Assembly: GCA_025057645.1 (NCBI GenBank)
Contig: JANXBJ010000001.1
Span: 492,357 to 556,356 of the forward strand
Length of the DNA stretch: 64,000 nucleotides
Source: Anaerolineales bacterium
GTDB lineage: Bacteria > Chloroflexota > Anaerolineae > Anaerolineales > UBA4823
Direction: 5' to 3'
The notes under the pieces are model-generated. The model worked only from the letters and a program-made list of their open reading frames with translations. It had not been told where the DNA came from and ran no database searches. The position numbers and the translations under genes are program-made. Within the stretch, counting starts at the first letter, position 1. The number at the start of each line of letters is the position of its first letter. Positions 42,356 through 43,890 of the stretch are shown here, piece after piece.

Positions 42356-43339
42356 CTAGCTCTGCTCGAAAATCTCATGGTAGTGACGATCGAGTTCTTC
42401 ATCGGAAAGGTGAGCATATCGTTGAGTGACGCCGATCGATTTGTGCCGTGCCAGCTCTTGGGCTAGCTTCAGATTACCGCCTGAGCCTCGTAGGACGGTT
42501 GTCACGAAATAGTGGCGGAAGGAATGGGGAGTGATCAGTTGAGCAGCTTCTCTGCCCAAAGCAAGGGCAACATGGTGCTCGATAATTTGGCGCCCGGTAG
42601 TGGTGGAAATGGGCTTAATCTCCTTTCCAACCCGGCGGTCATGTCGGGCGAAAAGCGGCAAAGAGGCAATCGGTCTTCCTAAAGCTCCGTCCAAAGGGGA
42701 ACGCTCAGCCAAGTATTCCTTGATAGCCTTTAAGGAGCGAGTGGAGAAGCGGATAACCGCCTGTTGATTTCCCTTGCCGAGAACGATAGCTTTATGCTCC
42801 ATCCAGTCAACGTCGCCGCGCCGTAGGCTGCAAGCCTCGTGGATCCGGAGTCCTGTATCTGCAAGTGTCAGAATTAGGGCTCGATCGCGCAAGACTCGCA
42901 ATCGATCCCTATACCTGCGGGGTAAATTATCTACAAGCTTAATTGCATAAGTAACTATTTCTTCTATTTCTTTTTGCGCAAATTGAGGTAAGCGCTGCCC
43001 TGGGCGGCGGGTTCGCTGGCGAATGAGCAGGCGAAGTTTCGACAAATTCACCGAGATAATTTCCGAAGCAGAAAGATATTCGAAGAAGCGGTAGATTGCC
43101 GTCAGGTAGAGGTGCTCCGTGGCAGGGGCGAGGTGGTGAAGTCGGTCGATGCACTTTAGAATGGAACTTTCTCTTAGGGTGCTTATAGGTTGGCGACCAA
43201 CCTCTTGCGGGTCTCCAAGCGATTGAAGGAAAAAAGATAGGGCACTGGCGTAACTACGGTGGGTGTTTTGGCTGCGCGAGCTTTGGATTAGAGAGAGAAA
43301 TCCATCAAATGCTTGCGAAATTGTAAATTTTTCGGTCAT
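42356..43339 (-). CDS. Tyrosine recombinase (XerC/D-like)
   Basis: Catalytic R-K-HxxR-H-Y set: 'TGLRIHEACSLRRGDV', 'GKGNQQ', 'PHSFRHYFVT', 'ARHKSIGVTQRYAHL'; start at 43339 (MTEKF) preferred given the promoter. Confidence 0.93.
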   Translation of the reverse strand: MTEKFTISQAFDGFLSLIQSSRSQNTHRSYASALSFFLQSLGDPQEVGRQPISTLRESSILKCIDRLHHLAPATEHLYLTAIYRFFEYLSASEIISVNLSKLRLLIRQRTRRPGQRLPQFAQKEIEEIVTYAIKLVDNLPRRYRDRLRVLRDRALILTLADTGLRIHEACSLRRGDVDWMEHKAIVLGKGNQQAVIRFSTRSLKAIKEYLAERSPLDGALGRPIASLPLFARHDRRVGKEIKPISTTTGRQIIEHHVALALGREAAQLITPHSFRHYFVTTVLRGSGGNLKLAQELARHKSIGVTQRYAHLSDEELDRHYHEIFEQS

Positions 43340-43359
43340 TTCGAACCTTAGCGCCTTTG

Positions 43360-43399
43360 AATTATACTTACGATAATAATAGTTATCGTAAGTATAATT
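43360..43399. repeat. Perfect inverted repeat 17-6-17, dif-like core 43366-43393
   Basis: aattatACTTACGATAA-taatag-TTATCGTAAGTataatt; arms 43360-43376 and 43383-43399 identical by reverse complement. Confidence 0.95.
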
Positions 43400-43419
43400 G
43401 AGAAAGCATATTTTGTCAA
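43391..43419 (-). promoter_or_regulatory. Sigma70-like promoter of the recombinase gene, -10 inside the inverted repeat
   Basis: Minus strand TTGACA (43419-43414), 17 bp, TATACT (43396-43391). Confidence 0.75.
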
Positions 43420-43452: not shown

Positions 43453-43890
43453 CTAAAAGCCAAACGCGTCCGAAAAGCGCTTCAAGGCATCAGAGTAATC
43501 TATCCCCCTCTTCGCCTTTACTCCTTCTTTGGAAAGACGCACGTGCCGAGCAAGTTCTCGGAGGACGCAATCGATCTCCGAGAGATCTGATTGACGAACG
43601 GCGTTGATTAGCCTTCGCTTAGCCTCCCCTACCCAGCTCCATTCTTGATAGAAGTGATCAGCCTTGACCCAGTACCCCTTCTTCTCCCAGGCGGCCGAGG
43701 TCTGTTGGACGCTGTTTTCAATTTCATCGAGCGATAGAGCAATAAATGATGCTATATTTAATAATTTTTCATCTTTTCGTTCAAAATAGTCCTGAACAGC
43801 TTGTTCGATCAGCCTCAAAGCCTTTCCTCTCAGTTGCCGACCGCTTTGTGTTTGAACAATTCTACCCACTAACAGACTTCCCTTTATCAA
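43453..43890 (-). CDS. Hypothetical protein, 145 aa, TTG start
   Basis: ORF upstream of and codirectional with the recombinase; no family recognised. Confidence 0.6.
   Translation of the reverse strand: MIKGSLLVGRIVQTQSGRQLRGKALRLIEQAVQDYFERKDEKLLNIASFIALSLDEIENSVQQTSAAWEKKGYWVKADHFYQEWSWVGEAKRRLINAVRQSDLSEIDCVLRELARHVRLSKEGVKAKRGIDYSDALKRFSDAFGF

Follow-up and report, generated by a model that had tools for sequence, protein, structure and literature searches.

Chromosome dimer resolution by a single recombinase is known from few bacterial lineages (XerS, XerH and XerL). Among the single-recombinase systems, XerS/difSL and XerH/difH have their site near the gene (PMC5357621). XerS/difSL is FtsK-dependent, and the archaeal XerA appears to be FtsK-independent (PMC5357621). 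The XerL/dif system of the Legionellales has a single recombinase order-wide, a site with perfectly symmetric arms and a terminus position (PMC9765430). For the phylum Chloroflexota, the dif-site survey covers just three Dehalococcoides genomes (PMC3025954), and no earlier dif predictions beyond those three were found in the literature searched. Chloroflexi are absent from the main text of the tyrosine-recombinase classification (PMC8138268). A description of an Anaerolineales Xer/dif system was not found either in the literature searched, a non-exhaustive search, and the system presented here is likely, though not proven, to be newly described.

The locus lies in a 64,000-nt stretch of an Anaerolineales genome, called the window here. 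It consists of a recombinase gene and a dif-like site, very probably a module for chromosome dimer resolution in the Anaerolineales, with one active Xer recombinase and one dif-like site at the terminus. The gene encodes a Xer-type tyrosine recombinase of 327 aa (42356–43339, minus strand; PF00589, 85 bits), with an ATG start at 43339. The reading frame stays open upstream as far as 43438. The start at 43339, and with it the 20-bp gap between gene and repeat, was accepted because the orthologs align from ~43339 and a promoter-like site is found at 43391–43419. The active site is that of an intact tyrosine recombinase, with six catalytic residues (R165, K189, H272, R275, H299 and Y308), all invariant in 22 and in 42 aligned orthologs.

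Judged by its sequence, the recombinase is Xer-like, though it scored far under the NCBIfam cut-offs for XerC (120 bits, cut-off 335), XerD (115 bits, cut-off 330), XerA (115.5 bits, cut-off 220) and XerS (55 bits, cut-off 267). In profile matches to solved structures, XerA (94 bits) and XerD (74 bits) were nearest, followed by XerH (36 bits). Length (327 aa) and a profile score below those of XerA and XerD spoke against membership in XerH. A structure model was predicted with a 42-row alignment as input (pLDDT 87), a single-sequence input giving a poor model. By fold comparison of this model, XerA was again the nearest solved structure.

Upstream of the gene, a 40-bp perfect inverted repeat was found (43360–43399, no strand assigned), with arms of 17 nt and a centre of 6 nt (17-6-17). 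The arms (43360–43376 and 43383–43399) are 100% complementary and are separated by the 6-nt TAATAG, which confirmed the original prediction of a perfect inverted repeat 20 bp upstream of the recombinase start. For length, it outranks every other perfect inverted repeat in the window (spacer 3–10), and in 12 dinucleotide shuffles perfect arms never exceeded 12. Its 28-bp dif-like core (43366–43393, minus strand) reads ACTTACGATAA-CTATTA-TTATCGTAAGT on the gene strand. The 11-6-11 layout with ATAA and TTAT bordering the 6-bp centre, also part of the prediction, proved correct. The inner arm, next to the gene (43366–43376, minus strand), and the outer arm, far from it (43383–43393, minus strand), are both conserved in orthologous loci and are the presumed recombinase-binding half-sites. 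The central 6 bp (43377–43382, minus strand; CTATTA on the gene strand) are the presumed strand-exchange region, with the directional consensus S-T-A-T-Y-A. The core scored 47.5 bits (leave-one-out), compared with −6 in shuffles. No second copy of the 28-mer was present in the window, nor in the 3.10-Mb genome with up to three mismatches allowed. The genome thus holds a unique chromosomal site in the range of ~28–31 bp, with two inverted arms and a short centre, as in single-recombinase Xer/dif systems. The single copy near the terminus was the outcome named beforehand as support for a dif site. A 145-aa ORF without Pfam or NCBIfam match lies between the site and a tRNA-Leu gene (43453–43890, minus strand).

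The conservation of the module was determined in 249 genomes of the order Anaerolineales (Chloroflexota) with a completeness of at least 90%. All are assemblies, mostly metagenomic. The gene was present in 198 of the 249 genomes, nearly always in one copy, at a threshold of E<1e-60, and ~20% of the order was without the gene at that level. It was found in 38 of 61 relatives, and in the same class outside the order its presence was patchy. Recombinase identity dropped with kinship, from 68–70% within the genus to about 50% within the order.

With a leave-one-out position weight matrix, 45 of 50 training loci were found to have an 11-6-11 site upstream of the gene. The scores were mostly 40–58 bits, compared with at most ~3 in shuffles; 44 were above 15 bits and one was weak, at 6.9. 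Hold-out loci from other genomes gave a similar result (44/50), with a median distance to the gene of 39 bp. The upstream sites of both sets always had one orientation. Read towards the gene, the consensus was ATGCTTTYGATAA-STATYA-TTATCATAARCAT. The centre is directional, with T at position 2 in 44 of 44 sites and A at position 6 in 42 of 44. Covariation was found for the arm positions 2/27, 5/24, 7/22 and 8/21 (p 0.001–0.007 by shuffling, kinship being ignored in the p values). The proposed alignment across relatives therefore revealed a gene and a site that are conserved order-wide, together with the 6-bp centre. The arms were perfectly symmetric in 14 of 88 sites (range 7–11 of 11 arm pairs), and perfect symmetry characterizes this lineage rather than the order as a whole. 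One genome (JABGQV01) has two recombinase paralogs, each with its own site (L237 and L238). The L237 site is standard and that of L238 is a perfectly symmetric variant, GCTTCGCTTAA-gtatta-TTAAGCGAAGC. Such paired sites are what recombinase-site co-evolution would predict.

Genome-wide, site and gene were strongly linked. The core pattern TTNNGATAASTANNATTA occurred in 126 of the 198 gene holders and in 3 of the 51 non-holders (Fisher p 8e-15). In two of these three non-holders, the match was no more than 0.8 kb from the start of a contig. In total, 140 matches were obtained, compared with 7 for the reversed control. All 104 matches on the contig of the gene shared its strand; 85 were at most 400 bp upstream of it, and 100 lay within 5.2 kb of it. 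One of the 104 was a second match, 1.7 Mb off (G203). In several genomes the site was apart from the gene, either on another contig (G048 and G089) or at a distance of 6 kb (G028), 9.2 kb (G254) or 67.6 kb (G084). This persistence apart from the gene argues against a pure operator and fits a recombination site that is acted on in trans.

On viral contigs, the pattern matched 7 times, as often as the reversed control (7), and for this reason the viral copies were not counted as evidence. Only two viral contigs, each with a near-perfect intergenic copy of the site, scored above the control (L277:3012–3051 and L281:97–136). The pieces examined hold no recombinase, and the L277 copy is flanked by a portal and a minor head gene. 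These could be phages exploiting the host Xer system.

A switch from G-rich to C-rich along a strand usually marks the replication terminus. On the 865-kb contig of the locus, GC skew was positive for ~500 kb leftwards and negative for ~300 kb rightwards. In a one-step fit, the skew changed from +0.090 to −0.054 with the break at 523 kb. Located at 535.7 kb, the site is 13 kb from this sharp reversal, and is therefore at the replication terminus. Within the window, the cumulative skew rises to ~30 kb, is flat to ~56 kb and then drops. This plateau forms a terminus zone (30000–56000, no strand assigned), with the G-rich replichore to its left, the C-rich one to its right and the site close to its middle (43.4 kb). 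Three complete relatives were sampled at 20 points; two of them, G047 and G108, belong to the same genus. The distance between fitted terminus and gene was 4.5% of the half-chromosome in G108 and 6.7% in G047. For G130, GC skew puts the terminus 0.5 Mb away (25%) and AT skew within 0.1 Mb (5%). The terminus position of single-recombinase systems was thus found in the genome of the window, with G108 and G047 in agreement and the two skews of G130 in disagreement. Two further single-contig genomes (G018 and G021) consist of N-joined scaffolds and were excluded from the skew analysis. In G047, dnaA is 0.68 Mb from the recombinase gene and was of no help as an origin marker. FtsK-orienting motifs flipping at the site were also looked for, and those obtained were all accounted for by the general skew.

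FtsK with a gamma domain was present in all 16 genomes checked. These genomes usually encode two separate gamma-domain FtsK-type proteins each. The original prediction had asked for a count of XerC/XerD paralogs, and no canonical XerC or XerD was found in the genome of the window. Its other PF00589 matches are an integron integrase, a broken integron-integrase copy and a dead Xer-like protein, so that a second catalytically active Xer recombinase was not found there; in a few relatives, a XerD-like protein is encoded as well. The integron integrase and the broken copy are on separate contigs (L002, G000 C16, and L005, G000 C55), the intact one (TIGR02249, 440 bits) on a contig of 27.7 kb. Among the 249 genomes, the NCBIfam XerD cut-off was passed in one, and scores above 200 bits were reached in nine. 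The model is strict (no more than 4 of 14 control genomes passed), and the count therefore shows only that canonical XerD is not usual in the order. That this gene strictly replaces XerD was considered and rejected, since in five genomes (G039, G052, G040, G085 and G256) it occurs together with a XerD-like protein above 200 bits. In G039 and G052 (genus g27), the XerD-like protein reaches nearly 300 bits and the consensus pattern is absent, a possible transition between systems.

The dead Xer-like paralog is encoded beside tilS (G000 C60:28588–29535; L004:1081–2031). It was found in 15 of 16 genomes (L180–L194), 51–83% identical to the copy in the genome of the window. In all 15, the first catalytic arginine is replaced by lysine, and the catalytic tyrosine is lost. 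Because this catalytically dead paralog is conserved, it is safer to speak of "one catalytic recombinase" than of "one protein".

A sigma-70-type promoter, TTGACA-17-TATACT (43391–43419, minus strand; 11/12 matches), overlaps the repeat, its −10 box falling within the outer arm. Among the relatives, about half of the loci have a TTGACA ~24–29 bp upstream of the 40-mer, with an A/T-rich −10 box just upstream. A fixed promoter spacing, with the −10 box in the arm, was considered as a general rule and rejected; it applies to the window and a few relatives, and elsewhere the promoter is just upstream of the site. Autoregulation of the recombinase is likely from this arrangement, because recombinase bound there would sit over the promoter or the start region. 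A wider, order-wide scheme is rather unlikely, in which dif doubles as the operator of its own recombinase gene, its occupancy sets the recombinase level and, in addition, the dead Xer paralog acts as a regulatory or structural partner.

For the reaction itself we infer binding, cleavage and dimer resolution, with FtsK dependence and autoregulation. Two recombinase monomers would bind the two arms of the site, and the two sites of a chromosome dimer would synapse. Strand exchange across the conserved directional 6-bp centre would then resolve the dimer. The septal translocase FtsK, through its gamma domain, probably triggers the reaction. Bound recombinase probably represses its own transcription, the site covering the promoter of the gene.

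The site, its conservation and linkage to the gene, the catalytic residues, the terminus position and the presence of FtsK gamma were shown by computation. Dimer resolution has to be weighed against three other explanations. The palindrome might serve not for recombination but only as a symmetric operator, through which the recombinase promoter is repressed, be it by the recombinase itself or by a different dimeric regulator. An operator would agree with the place of the site, which lies upstream of the gene in most loci and, in the window and many relatives, overlaps a sigma-70-type promoter at its −10 box or start region. We regard this as very improbable. The arms are spaced 11-6-11 around a 6-bp centre that is conserved and asymmetric, several genomes retain the site 6–68 kb from the gene or on a different contig, and its position is at the skew-defined terminus. 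Nor is there much reason to assume an element that inserted near tRNA-Leu, with the recombinase as its integrase and the palindrome as its attachment site. Tyrosine recombinases often belong to elements, a point in favour of this reading, and the gene is 0.6 kb from a tRNA-Leu gene. However, the window contains no duplicate of the tRNA 3′ end, the gene is nearly always single-copy, order-wide and falls in identity with kinship, the palindrome is unique in the genome, hence without an attL/attR pair, and no close plasmid relative was found. The variable presence, boundaries and duplicated att sites of a phage or element integrase were thus lacking, and the probability of this explanation is close to nil. 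The alternative of an integration module, offered in the original prediction, is not supported either.

The third alternative is a two-component system. Here a second Xer protein, which could be the dead paralog or an active one that was missed, would use the site together with the active recombinase. In its favour is the presence of the paralog in 15 of 16 genomes, at 51–83% identity to the copy in the genome of the window. Most sites are imperfectly symmetric (7–11 of 11 pairs), hence the arms may be non-equivalent. Against this, the paralog is without catalytic arginine I and tyrosine and is unlinked to the site, nearly all genomes are without a XerD-grade second recombinase, and the site in the genome of the window is perfectly symmetric. 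A two-component system therefore appears improbable. The proposed one-protein module with a symmetric site was largely supported: canonical XerC and XerD were not found in this genome and its site is perfect, with the qualifications that a dead paralog is conserved, that perfect symmetry is not order-wide and that the site overlaps the promoter of the gene.

Dimer resolution by one catalytic Xer recombinase in the Anaerolineales would add a one-recombinase lineage from another phylum, spanning most of an order. Its site has a near-canonical dif layout, is beside or on the recombinase promoter, and is sometimes perfectly symmetric. The site offers a terminus marker for Anaerolineales genomes and is a possible landing site for their phages and integrative elements. 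With a symmetric site and a single enzyme, a long-standing question becomes testable, that of strand-exchange order and the response to FtsK.

Each of the known systems shares part of these features. XerCD/dif, the system of most bacteria, has the same 28-bp 11-6-11 site, ATAA-6-TTAT around the centre, terminus position and FtsK gamma domain, but works with two recombinases, whereas here there is one catalytic recombinase, whose scores for XerC (120 bits, cut-off 335) and XerD (115 bits, cut-off 330) are low. XerA/dif of archaea likewise has one Xer protein, and XerA is the nearest solved structure. The recombinase here reached 115.5 bits with the XerA model (cut-off 220), and its host is a bacterium with FtsK gamma. 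XerS/difSL of streptococci and lactococci likewise has a single recombinase, and its gene and site are direct neighbours that form one module (PMC5357621). However, difSL has 31 bp, an 11-bp centre and unequal arms, and the Anaerolineales site has 28 bp and a 6-bp centre, so that the site is not of the XerS type (31 bp, 11-bp centre). XerH/difH of Campylobacter and Helicobacter also combines a single recombinase with a site near the gene (PMC5357621). XerH proteins have 354–362 aa, compared with 327 aa here, and the match to the solved XerH was weak (36 bits). For XerL (Lpg1867), the comparison covered its published description. In L. pneumophila, dif is >400 kb from xerL (PMC9765430), whereas the site here adjoins the gene. 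The arms of the XerL dif are unlike known Xer motifs (PMC9765430), whereas the Anaerolineales arms have the usual inner ATAA/TTAT. The Anaerolineales system thus joins adjacency of site and gene with near or full symmetry, and retains the canonical 11-6-11 layout.
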